DNA of 64,000 nucleotides from Thermoplasmata archaeon (GTDB taxonomy: Archaea > Thermoplasmatota > Thermoplasmata > Methanomassiliicoccales > Methanomethylophilaceae), in contig SUSW01000034.1 in the NCBI GenBank assembly GCA_015063235.1, positions 1 through 64,000 on the forward strand. Direction: 5' to 3'. The position numbers and the translations under genes were made by a program. The notes below the pieces were generated by a model that worked only from the letters and a program-made list of their open reading frames with translations, had not been told where the DNA came from and searched no databases. Within the stretch, counting starts at the first letter, position 1. Every line of letters starts with the position of its first letter. Positions 4,213 through 62,611 of the stretch are shown in pieces.

Positions 4213-5331
4213 TCAAACTCCTTTGGATTTCAGGTGTTTTCCCGACAGTATGTTGGTCATGATGCACAGGTCATTGATGATATCCCTGCGGGTCAGGAAG
4301 TAGATCTTTTCGTTGTTCTCCTTGTAGAAATCGACGAATCCAGCATCTTTCAGCTTCTTCATGTCATGCGATGCTAGGGGATACGAGCACCCGAGCAGCT
4401 CGGCGGCCTGACCTACGGTCAGGTCCACAGAGCACATGGATAGGAGGAGCTTTACGCAGTCCTTGTTGGAAAGCACGGACCAGGTATCCTTGATGTCGTC
4501 GGACATCCCGTCCACGAGCCCCATGACAGGTTCCAGCTGATCGGGTCCGGGCCCGTCGGCTATAGATACGTTGGAGTATGGAAGGCGGGCGCATACGGCG
4601 AAGTTCACGGGAGCATGGATGCCGGTATCGCCGGTCCTGTTATCACCGGCATCCAGGTAACGGATGTCTATGTCTCTGAATCCCAGTCTGCTGAGGATGT
4701 TTACATCCCATGTCGGACGGAACTCTCTGCTCAAAGGAAGCTCTTCGGCCAACCTGTCGCATCTGGTGAAATCCACATTGTTCACATTGGTCATGGTATG
4801 AAGGTCTTTACCTTCCCTTGTATTCAGAACGCTATAGGCATCCTCGTGGCTGAAGGACGGGTCGAATTTGTGCAGATAGTAGTTGCCGTCGAATACTATG
4901 ATCTATCCGCCGGGTCTGAGGAGCTTCTTCCATTTGGTATAGGCCTCGGACGGCTTTGTGAGATTCCACAGGCAGTTCCTGGCGATGATAACGTCAAAGG
5001 AACCATGCGGGATCTTTGGGTCCTGGACATCATCCTCTATGAATTCGATATCGGCATCGTAATTCTTTGCCAGCCCTCTTGCTGCTTCAAGCATCACAGG
5101 GTTGTTATCGATGGCATAGACCTCGTGTCCCATGAGTGCGACCTCGATGGCGACCGTTCCCACACCTGTACCCATATCAGCAATCTTGCATCTGCCTTTG
5201 TCCTTCAGGAACATGTTGAGCATGAAGCTCAGGTCCGTATTGGAATTCAGAATAAGGCGAGAGTATTCCAGGAGTCCGGGGATACGGTCCGTCCAGTACC
5301 TTTCGAATTCTTCTTCCAAATCGGAGCGCAT
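4213..5331 (-). CDS. SAM-dependent methyltransferase fused to ArsR-type HTH, with in-frame UAG
   Basis: Read through one TAG, this is a 372-aa protein. Residues 1-142 are a class I SAM methyltransferase: motif I IADMGTGVGT (50-59), acidic loop AIDNN, and IARNCLWNL. The post-motif III strand reads LLRPGG-[UAG143]-IIVFDGNYY; family members have an ordinary residue at this spot (typically LRPGGRLLVFD). Without read-through the Rossmann fold is cut. After the rest of that domain comes a winged helix (about 280-345, LTVGQAAELLGCSYPLASHDMKKL) of ArsR type. The gene diverges from the FecCD importer and may control it or modify its cargo. The final stop is TGA. The alternative, a nonsense-mutated pseudogene, is less likely because the rest of the frame is clean. 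Confidence 0.85.
4903..4905 (-). other. In-frame UAG, candidate pyrrolysine codon 143
   Basis: The minus-strand context is GGC GGA TAG ATC ATA GTA. The codon lies between the conserved LRPGG turn and the following beta strand of the methyltransferase, and the same frame runs on for 229 codons to a TGA. Confidence 0.75.
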
Positions 5332-24711: not shown

Positions 24712-27700
24712 ATGGTAGAGAAAGTAGATAGGACATACAGTAAGGATGAAGTCATGGGCATGATGGAGCCGCTAATCTCCACATGGTTCAATGAGAAGTA
24801 TGATGACCTCACCATCCCTCAGGCGAAGGCCATCCCCGTCATCCATCAGAGGCGTAATGTTCTGGTGTCCTCTCCGACAGGTTCGGGAAAGACCCTTACG
24901 GCGTTCACCAGCATCATCAATGAGCTGACGCGCTATGCCAGGGAAGGTACTTTGGAGGAGCGTGTCTACTGTATCTACGTATCTCCGCTGAAAGCTTTGG
25001 GAAACGATGTCAACCGCAATCTTAACACCCCGTTGGCTGAGATGAGGGAGGTCGCGGACAGACACGGTATGAACGTTCCGAAGATCACAGTCGCCGTGAG
25101 GTCCGGAGACACATCGCAGGCGGACAGGCAGAAGATGGTCCGCCATCCGCCGCATATCCTTATCACGACGCCGGAGAGCCTCGCGCTGATCCTGGCAGCC
25201 CCCAAGTTCAAAGACGCTTTCAAGAACGTGGAGTGGGTCATTCTGGATGAGATCCATGACATCTGCGATTCCAAGAGGGGAGCGTTCCTCTCGCTGACAC
25301 TGGAACGCCTCAGGAACCATTGCGAGAAGGATTTCGTCCGTATCGGGCTATCCGCAACACTGGCACCCATCGATGCAATAGCCTCCTACCTTGTAGGATG
25401 CAACGACGACGGGTCGATTCGGGATGTGGCCCTGATAGAATCGGGATCGAAGAAGACATTGGATCTGCAGGTCATATGTCCGACCAATGATCTCACAACG
25501 CTTTCATCAGATATCGTCAATTCGATGATGTATGATACTCTAAAGGAGCTCATCGAACAGCATGAGACTACATTGGTCTTCACCAACACCAGATCGGGTG
25601 CGGAGAGTGTCGTCTACAAGCTGAAGGAGAGAGGGCTCGATAACATAGAGGTACACCACAGTTCCTTGGGAAAGGAGATCAGAATGGATGTGGAGGAGCG
25701 TTTGAAGCACGGTGAGATCAAGTGCGTCGTATCTTCCACATCGCTGGAGCTCGGTATCGATATCGGTTCCGTCGATCTAGTGTGCCAGATAGGTTCCCCC
25801 AAGTCGGTTGCCAAAGGTCTGCAGAGGATCGGTAGGAGCGGTCACAGTTTCGGAAAGGTGGCCAAGGGAAGGCTGCTGGTGTTCGATCCGGACGATCTCG
25901 TGGAATGTGCTGTCATGTGCCGTGCGGCCCATAGGGGTGACATCGACCGTGTCGGTATACCCGAGAACTGCCTGGATGTCCTATCGCAGACCATCGTCGG
26001 AATGAGTCTGGATAACAGATGGGATATAGATGAGGCGTTCAGTCTCGTAAAGCATTCGTACTGCTACCGCAACCTGACCAAGGAGAGCTTCATGCAGGTC
26101 ATACGCTACCTGGGAAGCAAGGATGACTTCGAGGGAGTGTACTCCAAGATATGGTATGATGAGGAGGAGAACGTCTTTGGGAAGAAGAAGGGCTCCCGCA
26201 TGATCTATTTCATGAATCTCGGAACGATCCCGGAGGAAGCCAACTATCGCGTCATCACCAATCACGGTTCGATCGCCGGAGAGCTGTCCGAGAAATTCGT
26301 CGAGAGGCTGTCCCCCAGGGACGTCTTCGTTCTGGGAGGGCGTTCGTTCGAGTTCGTCCGTTCCAAGGGGATGACCGCATACGTGAAGGAGGCCAACGGA
26401 AGGAAGCCGACCGTCCCTTCATGGGCGGGAGAGATGCTGCCGAGGAGTTTCGACCTCTCCATGGATGTTGCTGTCTTCAGGCGTGAGATGTCCTAGAAGA
26501 TACAGGAGGATGAGCGCAAGGCGATCAAGGAGCTCTCGGAGGAGTTCGATATCGACGAGGGTTCCGCCAGGAGCATATTCTCGTACTTCAAGGAGCAGGA
26601 AGCGGTCGCCGGATTCATCCCCGACGACAGGAAGCTGGCCGTGGAGGAGTATGTGGATCCGTCCGGCAATCAGAAGCTGGTGTTCCACTTCCCGTTCGGA
26701 CGCAGGGTCAACGATGCCCTTTCGCGTGCATACGCATACAGATTATCTAACATGCTCGGAGCAAACGTCTCCGTCACCATATCGGATGACAGCTTCATGC
26801 TGGGATGCCCTAGGACATTTGACCTGGATAAGCTCCACGGGCTCATAAGAGGAGGGGAGCTGGAGACCATACTGAGGAAGTCGCTCAAGGACTCCGAGAT
26901 ATTCAAGCTTAGGTTCAGGCATACCGCTGCCAGGAGCTTCATGATCCTCAGGAACTACATGGGCCGCCCCATATCCGTTAACAGGCAGCAGATAAGGTCA
27001 ACGTACCTTCTGGAGGCCTTGGGCAACATGGAAGGTGTGCCGGTCATCGAGGAGACATACAGAGAGGTCATGGAGGACGACATGGACATCAAGAATGCCA
27101 AGTACGTCCTGGATCTGATAGACATCGGGGATATGGAGCTGAACATCATCCGTTACACCGGCACTCCGTCTCCGTTCGCACATTCCGCCATCCTGTCAGG
27201 ATTCTCCGACATTGTACTGATGGAGGACCGTTCGGCCCTGCTGAGGGAGCTTCACAGGAAGGTGTTGAGCCGTGCGCTGGGAGATTCGGTCAGCGAATTC
27301 GAGTTCAACGAGGATCAGATCGTCCCATATTACGCTCAGAAGCCCGTCCGCATAGTGTCCAAGGATGACATCCCCAAGCTCCTGAAGCAGACGGGCCCCC
27401 TCCAGGCACTGCGCGAACGCGGAAGGAACATCTACACCTACACGGACGAGGACAGAAAGGTCGTGGACGTGTGGATCAGGGAGCTGATGCATACCGGAGA
27501 GATAGGCACCGTGTTCCTCGACGAACCCCACATCATGGTCTCGGAGGACATCCCGGATTACGCCGCGGCCACCAGGAAGGACCGCGAGCTGAACGATACG
27601 GACCGTGACGTCTACGGATGCATAGGCGTCAACACCCCCATGTCGGAGGTAGTGGAGAAGCTGGAGATCAGCGAGGACATGGTGATAAGATCGATAAGGA

Positions 27701-30072
27701 AGCTGGAATCGATGTATCTGATATCCAGGACCGATCTGTCAGCCAACAAATGGCTGTTCTCCCGTGTGGAGTATCCGGAGAAGGATGCCAACGAGGCCAC
27801 CGACCGCATCGTATCCAGGTTCCTCGAGTGTTTCGCACCGTCCACCGTGCAGGAAGTCTCTTACGCTCTATCCATAACGGAAGAGGATGCCCATAAGGCA
27901 TTGGAGTCCTTGACGGCCAACGAGGTCGTCGTGAAGGGAAGGTTCCTGGTCTCCGAGAACGATCAGTACATGCTCAAGATCGACCATATGAGGCTAAAGG
28001 CGGGACGCGATAACGTGTTCAGCTTCGATGCGGTCGAGAGGTACAGGCTGACCAAGGGTCAGCATTTCGATTCTATAACCGATTACTTCGACTTCCACGG
28101 ATCCGCAGGAAGCGAACTCGATGTCTACAACAGGGTGGATAACTTCGATATCAACGAATGGTACGACATGCGCAGGGACGGAATAATCCAGCTGGGCCGT
28201 TTCGTCAGGGGCAAGGTAAGGTTCGTCATGAGCGATGATGCCGACCGTTATGCGGCCATCAAGGTCGATGAGACATCCCCAGAGGATCTGGATCTCCTCA
28301 ATGTCATAGACGGCATGGGCAGCGCCACACTCAGGCAGCTCGTCGCTGAGACAGGCAAGGACAAAGAGGCCGTTCGTGAATCGATCATGCGTTTGGACAG
28401 GTCGCTCCGCATCATCAGAGCATTCGGCGAGAAGGAGGAATGGGGAACGGAGAACACGTACGAGGTGTTCTATCCGAACGAGCCAGAAGGCGATCCCGCA
28501 AAGGATCTGCTGGCCAAGGCCATCAAGGCCTACGGTCCCATCCCTGCGATGGCCCTGCGCTACATGATCGGCATCCCCTTGGATATGGTCGAAGAGCTTG
28601 CGGCGGAGGTCGGAGCCAAGACCGTCATCGTAGGAGACGGACATACCCAGATGTATGTGATGGAGGACGAAATACCCTTGTTGGATTCCGTCAGGGAGAC
28701 GGAGTACAGCATCCGTATACTTTCGCTGTTCGATCCAGATCTGGGCTCTAAATGGGCCGAGATAGCGGCCCGCTACGGGGACAAATGGATCTATCCCCTG
28801 GTCAAGGGATCCGTCATCGTGGGGGCACTGGAGATCTGGGAGATGTCCGGATGCGTGGAGATACGTTCCATGGATATGGACGACCCGTCGATGCTGAAGG
28901 AGGTCCTTGCTGCCGTGGATCACATGATGGGATTCTACCATCAGAAAGGGATAGAGATCGTCCGCATAAGAGAGGTGCTGAGCACAGACGCTGCAGAGCT
29001 GGATGATGAGAAGAAAGCCATACTCGAGGAGTCCGGATACGTATTTGTCAACGGATTCTTCGCCAAAGGAAGGTTCGATCCCTGGACTATGACCGAGGAT
29101 CAGATGATATCCTATGTGTTCTCGAAGCAGAGGGTGGGCAAGACCAATAAGTATGGTACGGTGGCTGAGTGCGTGGCCGTCAGAGGATACATACGCGGAG
29201 ACCAAGAGATAATGACTCGTGTCCAGGAGAAGACCATCATGAAGAAGCAGATGGAGAAGGGCTATCTGGTGAAGATGTCGCTGGTCCCCGGATATCAGGG
29301 ATATACGGACATGGAGCGTGCATCTATGTTCCGTGCCCACAAGGGTTATGTCCCTGTGGACGATGCAAAGACGATCGTCAACCTCATCGCGAAGAAGCAG
29401 CCCATATCCAAGAAGCAGATCATCCTCGATTCTCCGCTGTCTCAGGAACGTACGACGGAGATATTCAACGAGCTCAACAAGAACTCCTACATCTATCAGG
29501 ATTCCGACTCCAACTACAGCATCGTGCCTGAGAGCGATATGACTCAGGCCGAGGCCACCAAGGAGATTGCCAAGATGCACTTCCGCGATTTCGGGATATT
29601 CTCCGCAGAGGACATGTCACTCTTCCTGGCCAGCAGGATGTCCGTTGCGAGAGCTGTCCTGAGGGAGCTAGAGGACGAGGGATTCCTGAAGAAGGGATTC
29701 TTCATCAAGGACGACCCTACGCTCAGATGGATGATAGCAGAGGATGTCGGTAACATACGCAGGAGAGCAGGTGACTCTTTCATTCTCAACTCGCAGGACA
29801 ACCTCAACGTGTACCTCAGGGATATGATCAAGTCCGATACCGGGACCACCAGATCCGTCATAATTGCCAACAACAAGGTGATAGGGTCGTTCGTAGGGAA
29901 GATATGCCCGTCGGGTGCGAAGGTGGAGGAGTTCGAAGGCAACGACCGTGCTTCCCGTATGATGAAGGAGGCCGCCCAATCCGTCGGCATAAGGCTGGAC
30001 ACCCAGAGACAGAGGGACGATGAGGATTGGGACGTGTCCGAGTTCTACACCAAGGTTAACATGGGAGCATAA
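24712..30072 (+). CDS. lhr: Lhr-type superfamily 2 helicase with in-frame UAG
   Basis: Read through one TAG this is a 1786-aa helicase of the long Lhr family. RecA1 has SSPTGSGKT (53-61), DEIH (179-182) and SAT (214-216); RecA2 has a TNTRSGAESVVYKL block and the QRIGRSGHS motif VI. The winged-helix region runs through PSWAGEMLPRSFDLSMDVAVFRREMS (about 569-594), then UAG595, then KIQEDERKAIKEL and the family block FHFPFGRRVNDALSRA. The last 150 residues resemble the AlkZ-like end of bacterial Lhr (NSQDNLNVYLRDMI ... NKVIGSFVGK). The paralogue at 47604-50348 aligns across the UAG without a gap. The final stop is TAA. Role: DNA repair or RNA/DNA unwinding. Confidence 0.88.
26494..26496 (+). other. 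In-frame UAG, candidate pyrrolysine codon 595
   Basis: The context is ATG TCC TAG AAG ATA CAG. The frame continues for 1191 codons to a TAA. Lhr homology is continuous on both sides of the codon. Confidence 0.78.
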
Positions 30073-55429: not shown

Positions 55430-56206
55430 TCAGTGCGAGTGGGGGAACAGCAGAGCCAGAGCAACCATTATTCCTACTCCGATAAGGAGCAGTGCAAGGC
55501 TCTTGAAGTCCTTTTCTTCCCTGTGGAAAGCCTCCGGAATGAGGTCGCACATGGTCACGTACATCAAGGTTCCTCCAGCAAACGCCAGCGGAAGTCCGAG
55601 TGTACCTTCGACCTCCATGTCACTGAAGAGCAGGAAGAACAGTGCTCCGGCGATAGGGGTAATCAGTGCGAATAGTCCTAGGCGGGTCATGGCCTTTTTC
55701 TTATCTATGTCCGTTAATGCCATCGTGGATGACAACGAGAACAGCTCAACGAATTTGTGTATGCACAGTCCGATCGTTGCCATAAGACCCATCTCTTCTC
55801 CGGACATGAATACTGCCGCAAGTGCCAAACCGTCACAAGCAGCATGGATGGCCAGACCGATGAAGGTGCTGATCGAAACGAGCTCATGTGAGTGCTCATC
55901 TTCATGACATCCGCAGTGTTCGTGGTGCTGATGTTTGAATATAGCGTTGAAGATCAGGATCAGAACGAATCCCAAGGCCACCATCATCATGGCGTAGTGT
56001 GTGTCTATTCCGCCCTCTTCGCTTTCCTCCAAAGCTTCGGGCAACAGTATGAACATTAGGAGTCCCAGAAAAATTCCGGCACTCAGTGCTATCATAAGGT
56101 GCGCACGGTCATCCTTCAGTTTGCCTATCTGGGGGAGATAGGCCCCAGCGATGGAGACCGCTAGCAGTATGATGGCGTAAATCGCAAACAGCAATCCTGG
56201 TTCCAT
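55430..56206 (-). CDS. ZIP-family metal transporter
   Basis: A 258-aa transporter with eight helices. A His-rich cytosolic loop (HQHHEHCGCHEDEHSHE) sits between helices 3 and 4. The metal path motifs are LAIHAACDGLALA and IGLCIHKFVELFSL (helices 4 and 5 of ZIPs, HxxxDG and HxxxE-like). It imports zinc or a related divalent metal into the cell. The NikR-like regulator is divergent from it across a 170-bp region, suggesting metal control. Confidence 0.9.
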   Translation of the reverse strand: MEPGLLFAIYAIILLAVSIAGAYLPQIGKLKDDRAHLMIALSAGIFLGLLMFILLPEALEESEEGGIDTHYAMMMVALGFVLILIFNAIFKHQHHEHCGCHEDEHSHELVSISTFIGLAIHAACDGLALAAVFMSGEEMGLMATIGLCIHKFVELFSLSSTMALTDIDKKKAMTRLGLFALITPIAGALFFLLFSDMEVEGTLGLPLAFAGGTLMYVTMCDLIPEAFHREEKDFKSLALLLIGVGIMVALALLFPHSH

Positions 56207-56376
56207 GATTCCAAACTTTATCTTGTGGTATAAGAGCCTTGGTCTGTTGTTAATAAAATAATAGAATAGTTTATATACTTGATATCAACAAATTAATAAC
56301 ATTTCAGCTTAAAAATTGCATTTAGTAGAGCGGTATTATATACTAAAGACTCCTAAATTAATAACCGGGTGATTTC
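56207..56376. promoter_or_regulatory. ZIP/NikR-like divergent promoter region
   Basis: A 170-bp AT-rich region. It contains a perfect palindrome TTGATATCAA (56279-56288) near TATA-like TTTATATAC, and an imperfect GTATTATATAC (56333-56343) overlapping a second TATA element. GGTGAT precedes the NikR-like ATG as Shine-Dalgarno. A classical GTATGA-N16-TCATAC nickel operator is not evident. Confidence 0.5.
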
Positions 56377-56760
56377 ATGAGTGTGATTAGTATATCTCTC
56401 AGCGACGAGTATTTGGGCGCTTTGGATGACATAGCAGATGCCTATGCCCTGGTCGGTCGTTCCGAAGCCGTCCGTATGTCGATATCTGTTGCCAAAGATG
56501 AGCTGCACGCGTTCAGTCCCTTGAAGGGGGATGTCGAAGGGGTACTGATCATAGTCCGTGGGGATCACGCAGATCCCTGGATGCTCCAGGTTCAGGCGAA
56601 GTATCAGAGCGCAATAAAGACTCAGATGCATTCCCATCTCAAGAACAGCAACTGTCTAGAGGTCATGGTCATCTCGTGCGATGCCGCGATTCTGAAAGAA
56701 ATGATCGCCGAGATTAGGTCCAAGGGAAAGGCGCTGTACGTTAAGTTCGTCAAGGAATGA
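56377..56760 (+). CDS. NikR-like metal-responsive regulator with altered metal site
   Basis: A 127-aa ribbon-helix-helix repressor. The N-terminal strand and helices (VISISLSDEYLGALDDIADAY) match CopG/NikR DNA-binding domains. The C-terminal ACT-like domain has IKTQMHSHLKNSNCLEVMVI: residues H85, H87 and C93 correspond to E. coli NikR H87, H89 and C95, but the residue matching H76 is A74. The fourth nickel ligand is therefore missing, and metal choice may differ. It diverges from the ZIP transporter, so zinc or another metal is plausible. Confidence 0.85.
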   Translation: MSVISISLSDEYLGALDDIADAYALVGRSEAVRMSISVAKDELHAFSPLKGDVEGVLIIVRGDHADPWMLQVQAKYQSAIKTQMHSHLKNSNCLEVMVISCDAAILKEMIAEIRSKGKALYVKFVKE

Positions 56761-57748: not shown

Positions 57749-57813
57749 CTCCGGCATCGCGATCATTGTCTGTTGTTTTCGTCGATTTGATAACAACAGT
57801 GTATCATCCGGAG
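57749..57813. repeat. Nested inverted repeats upstream of the AraC-type gene
   Basis: The outer pair is CTCCGG (57749-57754) and CCGGAG (57808-57813). The inner pair is CTGTTGTT (57770-57777) and AACAACAG (57792-57799), across 14 nt. The set lies between two divergent genes and could be an operator or a cruciform. Confidence 0.55.
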
Positions 57814-57891
57814 CGTCATCTCCCACTGTTACATCGGGAATGCAATCTTGGTTCTGTTTTTATCACATGATTGCGTTCACGATTCGAGAGA

Positions 57892-58857
57892 ATGGAGATA
57901 AGGGTCTACAACGATTTCATCAGCACTCCGGTCAACAAAGGGCGTGTGTACGAGATGAAACTTGATGACGGCTTCGCAAAGGTCACCAATTTCATCTTCG
58001 AGAAGTACGGGTTCGTCATCAATTACTATGACATGGAGACATCATTTTTCACAAACCAGGACAGAGTGGGTGAGATGGACTACATCCTGTTCAATGCTAC
58101 TCTGTTCGGAAGATTCGTCGGCAGATTCGATGAGGCAACTGTTTCAAAGCTGCCGGGAACGGGATTGATGCATCGCCCCTCCGATAAAAGGAGTTACGTG
58201 AATCTGCCTTGCAAAGGATATGTCGGATTGGGCATCGGTTTCGATTACAAGAATTTTAAGTTCTTCGATCCCGGTATGGAGATGGCTGGGTCGGATTTCC
58301 TGAGAGCGATCGAATCTAAGTACAGGGCGGACGGTCTGTCCGTCTTCTGTTTAGATGATGATGTAATGATGGAGATGTATGCGCTGCAGGCGATTCTGGA
58401 CAATCCGGATTCTATCGATGATGACAAAGTATCGGCAATAGTGTCCGATATGCTGCGCAGATTGTACAGAGTGAAGGAGATTAGATTCACCGATGTTTCA
58501 TCAGAGGCGGAACCTCTTCTCGAGGATGCTGTGTACAGCCGTATTATGTCCGATCTCAGCAAAGCGCCTCGGATAGACGAGGTCTGCAGCGAGCTTAACA
58601 CTGTCAAGTATTAGGTGAACAGACGTTTCAAGATGACCTATGGGGAAACACCTTATTCTATGCAGAGGCACCACCGTCTTCTCAAGGCGGGGAGTATGCT
58701 GATGCTCGGTGAGCGGAACATGGGGGCCGTGGCCAAAGCCATAGGATACGCCACCGAGAACAAGTTCGCTACTGCCTTTAGGAAGGAGTTCGGTTTCAGA
58801 CCAAAGCATTTTGACAGAGAGTTCGGGAATCCGCTAACACAGAATCGGAACGTATGA
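57892..58857 (+). CDS. AraC-family regulator with in-frame UAG
   Basis: Read through one TAG this is a 321-aa AraC-type regulator. Residues 1-210 form a sensory domain I do not recognise. The C-terminal 95 residues are the double helix-turn-helix: IDEVCSELNTVKY-[UAG241]-VNRRFKMTYGETPYSM, HHRLLKAGSMLML, then GAVAKAIGYATENKFATAFRKEFGFRPKHF. The second half is unmistakable AraC. The UAG sits in the first recognition helix, where relatives have an ordinary residue just before the conserved L in S-x-x-x-L-x-R-x-F. It precedes two ABC exporters/importers and probably controls them. It looks bacterial in origin. The final stop is TGA. Confidence 0.88.
58612..58614 (+). other. In-frame UAG, candidate pyrrolysine codon 241
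   Basis: The context is AAG TAT TAG GTG AAC AGA. It falls inside the first helix-turn-helix of the AraC domain, and the frame continues for 80 sense codons to TGA. Confidence 0.8.
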
Positions 58858-59084
58858 AGGTGCTCCGTCTTCCCTTTGTGCAAGACCAATATCCAATTTG
58901 TTTATTTTTCTAAACTGTCGGAATTAAAAAGAATCCAAAATTGAATTTTTAGGCATAACTAAATTATACTCATTCGGTGACATTCCCTCAGACATTGCTA
59001 CCTAAGGGTATAGGGCCCTTTACGGGTGCGATCAGGTCCGCAGATCGCAGAAAAATACAGGTATGCAAAAACGGAGGACCAAAA
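58858..59084 (+). promoter_or_regulatory. 227-bp leader of the ABC pair
   Basis: No gene is seen. TATA-like AAATTATAC (about 58962-58970) would start a transcript near 58990, leaving roughly a 90-nt leader. That leader contains AAGGG and CCCTT, which could form a short hairpin at about 59004-59021. A GGAGG Shine-Dalgarno at 59074 precedes the ATG. A structured or AraC-controlled leader is possible. Confidence 0.45.
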
Positions 59085-60872
59085 ATGGTTAAAGAAAAGA
59101 AGAAGGGCCGGATGGCAGAATTCGAAAAGTATGCTGAGGGCAGACATCACTTCGTTGCTATCGCGATGATTGGAGCAGCTGCTTCTGCTATACTGTCGGT
59201 TTTGCCATTCTACTATATTTGGCTTATAATAAATGAGGCGTTAGGTGATTGCGATACCGATCTTATGATCAGCTATGGATGGATGGCATTGGCGCTAGCT
59301 TTGCTGTCTTTGTTGGTATACATCGTGGCTTTGATGATGTCGCATCTTGCGGCTTTCCGCATTTCAAAGAATCTGAAGAAGACGATGATCACTCATGTCA
59401 TGACGCTGTCTCCAGGTGCGCTGGACGAAGAAGGCAGCGGTAGAGTCAGGAGGGTAATCCAGGATTCAGTCGAATCTACACATACATACATAGCTCATAA
59501 CCAGCCCGATCTGGCATCGACATTCGCTCTGCCTGTGGCCATAGTAGCTCTTTTGTTGATTTTTGATTGGAGATTCGCTTTGGCGGCTTTGATCCCAGTG
59601 GTGTTGGGGATCTATATGGCCGTAGGCATGCTCGGAAGAGAGAAGCTGAAGGAGAGCACGATCCAATGGCAGAACTCCATGGAGGATGTCAACAACAAGG
59701 CGGTGGAATTCGTTCGCGGAATCTCAGTGGTGAAGGTATTCCAGCAGACTGTCGATTCATTCCAGAGCTTGAAAGGGTCTATCGACAGATATTCGGATTT
59801 CTGTCAGGATTATACGAGGATGGCACGTCCGCATATGTCAGGAATGTTTACGCTCATCAACAGCTGTGGTGCGTTCATAATAGCGATGGCAGTAGTGCTA
59901 ATCGAGTTCTTTGAGAACGGTGCTATAAACAGCGATCTGATAGTCAATGCAATCTTTTACATCACGTTCACACCGATCATCAGCGTGCTGATGATGAGGA
60001 TTCTATCCCTTTCAGATCAGACGTACAAGGTGGACGATGCGATAGCACGTGTCAATAATCTCCTCTCGCTCAAACCGCTTGAAGAACCGAACGCTCCTGA
60101 GAATCCGGAGGAGTATTCCATCTCTTTCAGGGATGTCAGATTCTCCTATTCGGAGGATGCATCTCCGGCGGTGGACGGAGTCTCTTTGGATATGAGGCAG
60201 GGTACTGTGACGGCTTTGGTCGGACCGTCCGGAAGCGGAAAGTCCACAGTGGCCGGGCTGGCAGCAAGATTCTGGGATCCGCAAGAAGGTACAATTCAGA
60301 TTGGCGGCAGGGACCTTAAGAGCATAGGGAGCAAGAACATACGCAGTATTGAGAGCTATGTATTCCAGAACAATCATCTGATCAAGGGTACCCTTCTTGA
60401 CAACGTCCGTCTGGGCAAACCAGATGCAACAGAGGAAGCAGTGGCAGAGGCTTTAAGGCTGGCGCAATGTGACGATATCGTCAGGAAGATGCCTAAGGGT
60501 CTTGATACGGTGATAGGCCCGGGAGGAGTATACCTGTCAGGCGGAGAGGTTCAGAGAGTATCCATCGCCAGAGCGATACTCAGGAACGCCCCCATAGTGA
60601 TACTGGATGAGGCGACAGCATTCGCAGATCCCGAGAACGAGCATCTGATCCAGAAGGCGTTCGAGGAGTTGGCGAAAGGCCGTACGGTCCTGCTGATCGC
60701 TCACCGTCTGACAACAGTCCGCAACGCCGATATGATCTGCGTGATGGATCATGGAAGGATCGTCGAATCAGGAAAGCATGACGAGCTCGTTTCCAGATCC
60801 GGAAAGTACAGTGCAATGTGGGATGATTATCAGAAAGCGCTGTCATGGAAAGTCAAAGGGGTGTCCGCATGA
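59085..60872 (+). CDS. ABC half-transporter, YbtPQ/IrtAB-like (first)
   Basis: A 595-aa half-transporter. The N-terminal 320 residues form six membrane helices (HHFVAIAMIGAAASAILSVL ...). The ATPase domain has Walker A GPSGSGKST, signature LSGGEVQRVSIARA, Walker B IVILDEATAFADPENEH and H-loop LLIAHRL. Note FADPENEH instead of the common LD-T/S-ESE. The start MVKEKKKGRMAEF follows a GGAGG. It overlaps its partner gene (ATGA), so the two form a heterodimer. Similar bacterial pairs import metal-siderophores or export small molecules. Confidence 0.9.
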   Translation: MVKEKKKGRMAEFEKYAEGRHHFVAIAMIGAAASAILSVLPFYYIWLIINEALGDCDTDLMISYGWMALALALLSLLVYIVALMMSHLAAFRISKNLKKTMITHVMTLSPGALDEEGSGRVRRVIQDSVESTHTYIAHNQPDLASTFALPVAIVALLLIFDWRFALAALIPVVLGIYMAVGMLGREKLKESTIQWQNSMEDVNNKAVEFVRGISVVKVFQQTVDSFQSLKGSIDRYSDFCQDYTRMARPHMSGMFTLINSCGAFIIAMAVVLIEFFENGAINSDLIVNAIFYITFTPIISVLMMRILSLSDQTYKVDDAIARVNNLLSLKPLEEPNAPENPEEYSISFRDVRFSYSEDASPAVDGVSLDMRQGTVTALVGPSGSGKSTVAGLAARFWDPQEGTIQIGGRDLKSIGSKNIRSIESYVFQNNHLIKGTLLDNVRLGKPDATEEAVAEALRLAQCDDIVRKMPKGLDTVIGPGGVYLSGGEVQRVSIARAILRNAPIVILDEATAFADPENEHLIQKAFEELAKGRTVLLIAHRLTTVRNADMICVMDHGRIVESGKHDELVSRSGKYSAMWDDYQKALSWKVKGVSA

Positions 60873-62611
60873 GCATCTCCGAATCTATGAAGAGGAAGTT
60901 TGGTCTTTCAGACAGACAGTGGATCAATCTCAAAGGAGCATCACTGTCAGCTGTTATCACAGATTTCGTTCTGATGGTCCCTATGATGATCTCGATCATG
61001 TTCGTTGCCGATATCATCGGTGATAATGAGTACGATTTTAATCTCAATTTGTGGATCTATGTGGGTTTGAGCGTACTTCTGATATTCGTACTGTTCATCG
61101 TCTATTCCTACGAGTATAACAGATGCTTCGCCTACACTTACAGAGAGAGCAAGGATGTCCGCATATCGATGGCGGAGAAGTTGGGAAAGGCTCCGCTGTC
61201 GTTCTTCTCCAAGAAGGACCCGACGGATCTCACAGTGCGTATGATGGGGGATGTCACCATGCAGGAGAGCGCTCTTTCGCATTGGATGCCGGCATTGATA
61301 GCATCGCTGATCTTCACGCCTCTGATTGCAATAATGATTGTCATATGGTCACCCCTGATCGGAATTGCGATGATCTGGCCGATTCCGGTAGCACTCGCGA
61401 TAGTAGCGCTGTCATCCAAGGTGCAGAAGAAACAGAACAGAATCAAATTCGACAGAGTGGAGAAGGTCACAGAGATGATCCAGGAATCTATCGAATGTTC
61501 GGTGGATCTGAAAGCAAACGATGCACAGGACATATATCTGAAGAAATTCAACAAGGAATTGGATTCGGTCGAGAGTTCCGAGATCAGGTGTGAGTTAACC
61601 ACTGCATTATTCGTAGTAGGTGCACAGGCCGTATTGAAATTCGGAATCGCGACCACCGCCATAGTGGGTACGATTCTGGTAGCGGACAGTACTCTGCCGA
61701 TAATTGTTCTCATCATAGCATTGATCATGGCAGGACGTATCTACGATCCTATAAACATCGCCCTTCAGAATCTGGCAGCGATACTTACCGCAGAGGATCA
61801 CTGCGACCGTATACAGGAGATCAACGAACTGGAGCAGCAGGTCGGTTCGAAGGAATTCAATCCTGCGAATTACGATATCGAGTTCAGGAATGTTGGATTC
61901 TCCTACGACAATGAGAGGAATGTGCTCGAAGACGTGTCCTTTGTGGCCAAGCAGGGTGAGGTAACAGCTTTGGTCGGACCGTCCGGAGGAGGAAAATCCA
62001 CAGTGGCGAGACTTGCCACCAGGTTTTGGGATATCGATAAAGGGCAGATCACTCTGGGGGGTGTTGACATCGCTACTGTGGATCCCGAGTCTTTGATGTC
62101 AAGGTATTCCATAGTCTTCCAGGACGTCGTCCTGTTCAACACGACCGTGATGGATAATATCCGCATCGGGAAGAAGGGGGCCTCGGACGAAGATGTCTTG
62201 GCAGCTGCGAAAGCAGCAATGTGCGATGAGTTCGTATCCAGCCTTCCGGAGGGATACAACACGATCATCGGAGAGAACGGAGGCAAGCTGTCCGGAGGAG
62301 AAAGGCAAAGGATCTCCATCGCCAGAGCCATCCTGAAGGACGCACCCATCATCATAATGGATGAGGCAACTGCATCCCTGGATACCGAATCCGAGAGCAG
62401 GGTTCAGGAGGCATTATCCAGATTGGTGTCGGATAAGACGGTCATAATCATAGCGCACCGCATGAGAACTGTCGAGAATGCCGACAGGATCGTTGTTCTT
62501 TCCGGAGGGAAGGTCGCAGAGGAAGGTTCCCCATCCGAACTAAGAGAATCAGACGGAATGTTCTCCAGGATGGTAGAGTTGCAGACAAACAGCGGTTCTT
62601 GGAGCCTTTAA
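60869..62611 (+). CDS. ABC half-transporter, YbtPQ/IrtAB-like (second)
   Basis: A 580-aa partner of the preceding half-transporter. Six helices fill residues 20-300, beginning WINLKGASLSAVITDFVLMV. The ATPase domain has GPSGGGKST, LSGGERQRISIARAIL, IIIMDEATASLDTESE and IIAHRM, a canonical active site. Start MSISESMKRKF by ATGA overlap with the first gene. The stop is TAA, followed by a strong hairpin. In gut bacteria such gene pairs commonly follow an AraC-type regulator, as here. Confidence 0.92.
   Translation: MSISESMKRKFGLSDRQWINLKGASLSAVITDFVLMVPMMISIMFVADIIGDNEYDFNLNLWIYVGLSVLLIFVLFIVYSYEYNRCFAYTYRESKDVRISMAEKLGKAPLSFFSKKDPTDLTVRMMGDVTMQESALSHWMPALIASLIFTPLIAIMIVIWSPLIGIAMIWPIPVALAIVALSSKVQKKQNRIKFDRVEKVTEMIQESIECSVDLKANDAQDIYLKKFNKELDSVESSEIRCELTTALFVVGAQAVLKFGIATTAIVGTILVADSTLPIIVLIIALIMAGRIYDPINIALQNLAAILTAEDHCDRIQEINELEQQVGSKEFNPANYDIEFRNVGFSYDNERNVLEDVSFVAKQGEVTALVGPSGGGKSTVARLATRFWDIDKGQITLGGVDIATVDPESLMSRYSIVFQDVVLFNTTVMDNIRIGKKGASDEDVLAAAKAAMCDEFVSSLPEGYNTIIGENGGKLSGGERQRISIARAILKDAPIIIMDEATASLDTESESRVQEALSRLVSDKTVIIIAHRMRTVENADRIVVLSGGKVAEEGSPSELRESDGMFSRMVELQTNSGSWSL

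Follow-up and report, generated by a model that had tools for sequence, protein, structure and literature searches.

An archaeal genetic code in which every TAG codon stands for pyrrolysine was reportedly described by Kivenson and colleagues around 2025, with proteomic evidence from some archaea, and sense use of nearly all TAGs is also what we find in the stretches sampled from the genome studied here. Regulators with an in-frame UAG are already known: Methanosarcina acetivorans has a TetR-family regulator of this kind (PMC3639795), and an Rv0623-like transcription factor of 'Ca. M. alvus' is predicted to contain pyrrolysine (PMC4153887). The preliminary description of the present locus knew of no pyrrolysine-containing transcription factor, and these two precede it. 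The gene at this locus resembles the M. acetivorans one in encoding a regulator for which pyrrolysine is annotated or predicted, but belongs to another family and another archaeal order. With the 'Ca. M. alvus' proteins (PMC4153887) it shares a UAG outside the methylamine methyltransferases, UAG-free homologues and a genome in which TAG is rarely a stop, while differing from that list in being AraC-type with the UAG in the DNA-recognition helix. Family sets it apart from both earlier cases, and helix position from the 'Ca. M. alvus' one; a search of mainly freely accessible papers gave no AraC-type case with a UAG in the recognition helix. To the AraC/XylS regulators (SoxS, MarA and Rob, the ToxT/Rns fold and the YbtA type) it is similar in terms of its cupin-like N-terminal domain, seven-helix double helix-turn-helix (HTH) and adjoining transporter genes; unlike them, it is archaeal and has UAG as one codon of a recognition helix.

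The regulator gene and the place of codon 241

The gene lies in the window, i.e. the whole stretch of 64,000 nucleotides that was analysed, which comes from a rumen-type methanogenic archaeon, and has the following features:

57892..58857, + strand: AraC-type transcriptional regulator gene of 321 codons and a terminal TGA; one TAG lies in frame (translation, HTH_18, homologues, AlphaFold model)
57916..58245, + strand: N-terminal beta-barrel (cupin-like) sensor domain, approximately residues 9-118 (model strands and Foldseek)
58573..58824, + strand: AraC-type DNA-binding domain with two HTHs, approximately residues 228-311 (PF12833, model, Foldseek)
58606..58641, + strand: recognition helix of the first HTH, residues 239-250 (model; aligned to SoxS KWYLQRMF)
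58612..58614, + strand: in-frame TAG, codon 241, read here as probable pyrrolysine (frame, translation, relatives, pyl machinery)

The frame runs for 240 codons to the TAG, continues for 80 codons and ends at TGA 58855-58857, and translation revealed no other stop or frameshift up to that TGA. The sole Pfam match of the read-through protein was HTH_18 (PF12833) at residues 232-309, with the UAG inside the match. It scored 51-53 bits against a curated cut-off of 33.6, with 78 of the 80 domain positions matched in a single frame, and three orthologues aligned without a gap across the UAG site. Judged from the sequence, the HTH match across the UAG exceeds chance by far, and translation, domain match and alignment together bear out the preliminary description of an AraC frame that continues unshifted through this TAG. 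Sequence profiles also matched SoxS, XylR, Rob and MarA, and the conserved double-HTH domain assigns the predicted protein to AraC/XylS. Coding statistics persisted in the same frame 3' of the UAG, where the coding score was modest. An independent gene starting at GTG 58615 was considered and ruled out, because such a gene would begin midway through the first HTH, which homologues hold complete in a single frame.

The AlphaFold model had a mean pLDDT of 88.6 and placed helices of the DNA-binding domain at residues 228-234, 239-250, 254-271, 277-283, 289-300 and 304-312. Foldseek matched the regulator to ToxT, CsvR, Rns and CuxR, and its sensor domain to ToxT, Rns, CuxR and the AraC dimerisation domain. 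The C-terminal part superimposed on 6swi with an rmsd of 1.6 A over 101 columns; whole-chain TM values reached only about 0.3 and the rmsd was large, a result that we read as the domains being placed differently in the model.

In the model the first two of these helices form the first HTH. The second is the recognition helix, and the UAG at 241 occupies its third position. In the SoxS alignment K-Y-UAG-V-N-R-R-F pairs with K-W-Y-L-Q-R-M-F. MarA helix 3 contacts bases through Trp42, Gln45 and Arg46 (PMC3315485), and the same spacing makes Tyr240, Asn243 and Arg244 the equivalents of these residues and UAG 241 that of MarA His43. Since it aligns beside the contact residues, residue 241 need not touch bases itself. 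The earlier proposal of pyrrolysine in a DNA-contacting helix therefore stands as regards the helix, and pyrrolysine is the best reading of the codon, but a role of the residue itself as a base contact is unsupported by the MarA/SoxS alignment. The site is also variable, as family members have Ala or Gly (orthologues) and Gly, Ala or Asn (other paralogues) at this position.

TAG usage in the genome

The preliminary description had made its reading depend on pylT and pylS. The same genome was found to encode pylS, pylB, pylC and pylD, all above curated cut-offs, together with tRNA-Pyl with a CUA anticodon; it also has three full-length MtmB genes with one TAG apiece. TAG usage was sampled with a simple codon model on 346 kb, about one fifth of the genome, and a stop triplet was scored as continuing when followed by at least 40 codons of in-frame coding-like sequence. 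Coding-like stretches in the sample ended 298 times, at 251 TGA, 30 TAA and 17 TAG. Coding continued in frame after 15 of the 17 TAGs, the regulator's TAG being counted among the 15, but after only 11 of 251 TGAs and 1 of 30 TAAs (TAG versus TGA/TAA, 12/281; Fisher p ~3e-16). Of 23 TAGs in two same-family relatives lacking a full pylS match, 2 continued (p ~4e-7). Almost all UAGs of this genome thus serve as sense codons. This agrees with the published work on 'Ca. M. alvus', in which TAG makes up 1.6% of stops and 16 proteins besides the methyltransferases are predicted to contain pyrrolysine (PMC4153887).

The supported in-frame TAGs include five in methylamine methyltransferases, identified by position and sequence, one each in an Lhr-type helicase and a methyltransferase, and those of the following genes of the same genome:

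L060:2810-5179: TerB_N protein gene, supported in-frame TAG
L068:6853-7383: GNAT protein gene, supported in-frame TAG
L070:1507-3180: Na/Pi-PhoU protein gene, supported in-frame TAG
L073:10360-11958: TPR protein gene, supported in-frame TAG
L074:1206-2327: aldo/keto reductase gene, supported in-frame TAG

The Lhr-type helicase (window 24712-30069, + strand) is read through a TAG at 26494 and has DEAD, Helicase_C, WH_Lhr and DEAD_assoc matches, with an AlkZ-like one further on; RNA around its TAG folds unusually well (z = -3.2). The class I methyltransferase (window 4216-5331, - strand), read through a TAG at 4903, has a weak C-terminal match to an ArsR-type HTH and may be a further regulator-like protein encoded with a UAG in the window. 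As for the regulator, no PYLIS-like RNA structure was detected 3' of its UAG (z = -0.07), nor in an MtmB control from the same genome (z = 1.44); such a stem-loop after UAG was once proposed and later shown to be dispensable in E. coli (PMC8211752).

Orthologues and the upstream element

Full-length members of the regulator family were found in 8 of the 147 genomes of the order, all from one genus, and named records assign them to Candidatus Methanomethylophilaceae, mostly of ruminant origin. The three orthologues are 54-55% identical to the regulator (49% 5' of the UAG, 69-73% 3' of it), with synonymous sites near saturation. The preliminary description had proposed comparing orthologues at codon 241. 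They have GCG, GGG and GGG there, and nothing in the comparison suggests that pyrrolysine is needed at this site: the UAG is conserved in none of the three and was seen in one assembly only. This argues against a required role for pyrrolysine, but not against decoding. Among the 25 HTH_18 matches in the order, the regulator's is the one with a stop inside the domain.

The upstream region contains one further feature:

57842..57863, + strand: conserved upstream element GCAATCTTGGTTCTGTTTTTAT, 22 nt, about 50 nt before the ATG, 20/22 identical in the three orthologues

The best of 100 shuffles reached 16 identities out of 22 for this element, which is conserved despite the near-saturated synonymous sites and is likely a promoter (with a TATA-like end) or an operator. 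A search for direct repeats as candidate operators gave none, and one imperfect palindrome only. This inverted repeat of 20 nt, with a loop of 8 nt (window 57761-57808), is situated between a DUF3795 gene and the regulator gene; it may be a terminator or an operator, and was not seen in the upstream regions of the orthologues.

Conservation on both sides of the UAG and at the promoter makes the gene look alive, with the caveat that a recent nonsense change would leave the same conservation from before the change. That the UAG is such a change, terminating translation and leaving a young pseudogene or a truncated sensor, we nevertheless consider very unlikely. It is in keeping with this possibility that the codon is confined to a single assembly and absent from the orthologues, and that real UAG stops may occur in pyl-bearing genomes (2/17 here). 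Speaking against it are the reading through of nearly all TAGs in the genome, a gene otherwise free of stops and frameshifts, and the retained promoter element.

The same confinement to a single metagenome-assembled genome, and the two base changes that separate TAG from the closest orthologue codons, would also fit an assembly or sequencing error at 58612. A second copy from the same species was not present among the 147 genomes of the order, and an exact-pattern search of viral contigs gave no match. An error would, however, have had to yield exactly TAG, in a genome that tolerates this codon, and four homologues from other assemblies have TAGs elsewhere in the gene. We therefore regard this explanation as extremely unlikely.

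The regulator family, its neighbours and the possible role of pyrrolysine

The regulator gene is followed by two transporter genes:

58977..60872, + strand: ABC transporter, membrane and ATPase fusion, first of the downstream pair; likely start ATG 59086 (PF00664 and PF00005; ORF list)
60845..62611, + strand: ABC transporter, second of the pair (PF00664 and PF00005)

This arrangement of a regulator and an ABC pair resembles ybtA-ybtP-ybtQ. Genes of YbtA-like regulators of metallophore transport adjoin either a pair of ABC half-transporter genes or import genes of the FecCD type, as this regulator gene does. Most homologues are flanked by FecCD permease, Peripla_BP_2 and ABC genes; at this locus the ABC pair alone adjoins, and neither a FecCD gene nor one for a binding protein is seen. 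Because of the genes that adjoin its homologues, the regulator probably controls its neighbouring ABC genes, which would serve transport of the metal-chelate or corrinoid type. Close upstream (window 55430-56760), genes for a ZIP-type metal transporter and a NikR-like regulator fit a metal-related neighbourhood. Near codon 19, two FecCD permease genes beside UAG-free orthologues (L050:6883-8058 and L051:6123-7301) contain a TAG in frame; a relative has Tyr there, and the TAG may precede or follow the true start.

Within the matched region the 11 family members contain six in-frame TAGs, with neither TAA nor TGA, which speaks against decay and thus against a nonsense mutation. Besides codon 241, UAGs occur in paralogues from four other species (G019, G003, G026 and G017), all 5' of the DNA-binding domain: column 92 is common to G019 and G003 and column 168 to G026 and G017, and G017 has a second UAG at column 143. 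3' of the UAG that they share, G026 and G017 differ by 19 synonymous and 20 nonsynonymous changes. Because nonsynonymous changes are significantly below the neutral expectation of about 78% (p = 2e-4), this UAG is most likely translated through, judging from the substitution pattern, and selection 3' of a shared UAG likewise counts against the nonsense reading of codon 241. The UAG shared by G019 and G003 was also considered as proof of conservation, but is only suggestive, since the two are sisters with a support of 80/80 and G003 is on a long branch.

When the present gene is set aside, the family has 5 UAGs in about 3,100 codons (about 16 per 10,000), roughly ten times the genome-wide density of about 1.6 per 10,000. 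The neighbouring transport genes have 2 UAGs in about 13,500 codons (1.5 per 10,000; p = 0.003 by codon and 0.02 by event against the family), and the ABC-membrane domain matches from the genus, about 150 in number, had none. This density, together with UAG columns common to two species pairs, is what would be expected if UAGs were selectively kept in the family as a decoding-based sensor tying the full-length regulator, and with it iron or corrinoid uptake, to the supply of pyrrolysine. Plentiful pyrrolysine would then give the full-length protein and control of metal or corrinoid uptake, and scarce pyrrolysine a sensor-only product that would be a decoy or be incapable of DNA binding; FecCD-type import encoded nearby could supply corrinoid or iron for growth on methylamines. 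We nonetheless think such a switch improbable. The UAG columns vary by clade (92, 143, 168 and 243), the three orthologues and altogether 6 of the 11 members are without UAG, and no special RNA structure follows the codon. Moreover, the fast evolution of this accessory family may be enough on its own to raise the number of tolerated UAGs.

A reading of the UAG as pyrrolysine is thus strongly favoured over a stop, a pseudogene or an assembly error. Very probably the gene is expressed as a full-length AraC-type regulator with pyrrolysine at position 241, a tolerated substitution specific to its lineage, and with probable control of the neighbouring ABC genes. tRNA-Pyl would decode the UAG to give a regulator with a cupin-like sensor, for a presumed ligand, and a double HTH able to bind DNA, in which residue 241 of the first recognition helix would be pyrrolysine. 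The UAG would have become fixed at a tolerant position, a cheap change where UAG scarcely serves as a stop. As almost all TAGs of the genome are sense codons, the comparison of sequences makes such a tolerated substitution, with no conserved function for pyrrolysine, most likely.

Standard annotation, which stops at the UAG, yields a 240-residue fragment without the DNA-binding domain, so that regulators of such archaea are missed. If pyrrolysine is inserted, the 22nd amino acid would lie in the helix with which a transcription factor reads DNA, and the use of UAG as a sense codon would extend to regulatory proteins, tying their production to tRNA-Pyl. The UAGs clustered in this regulator family make it possible to test whether the codon is simply tolerated or serves for control.
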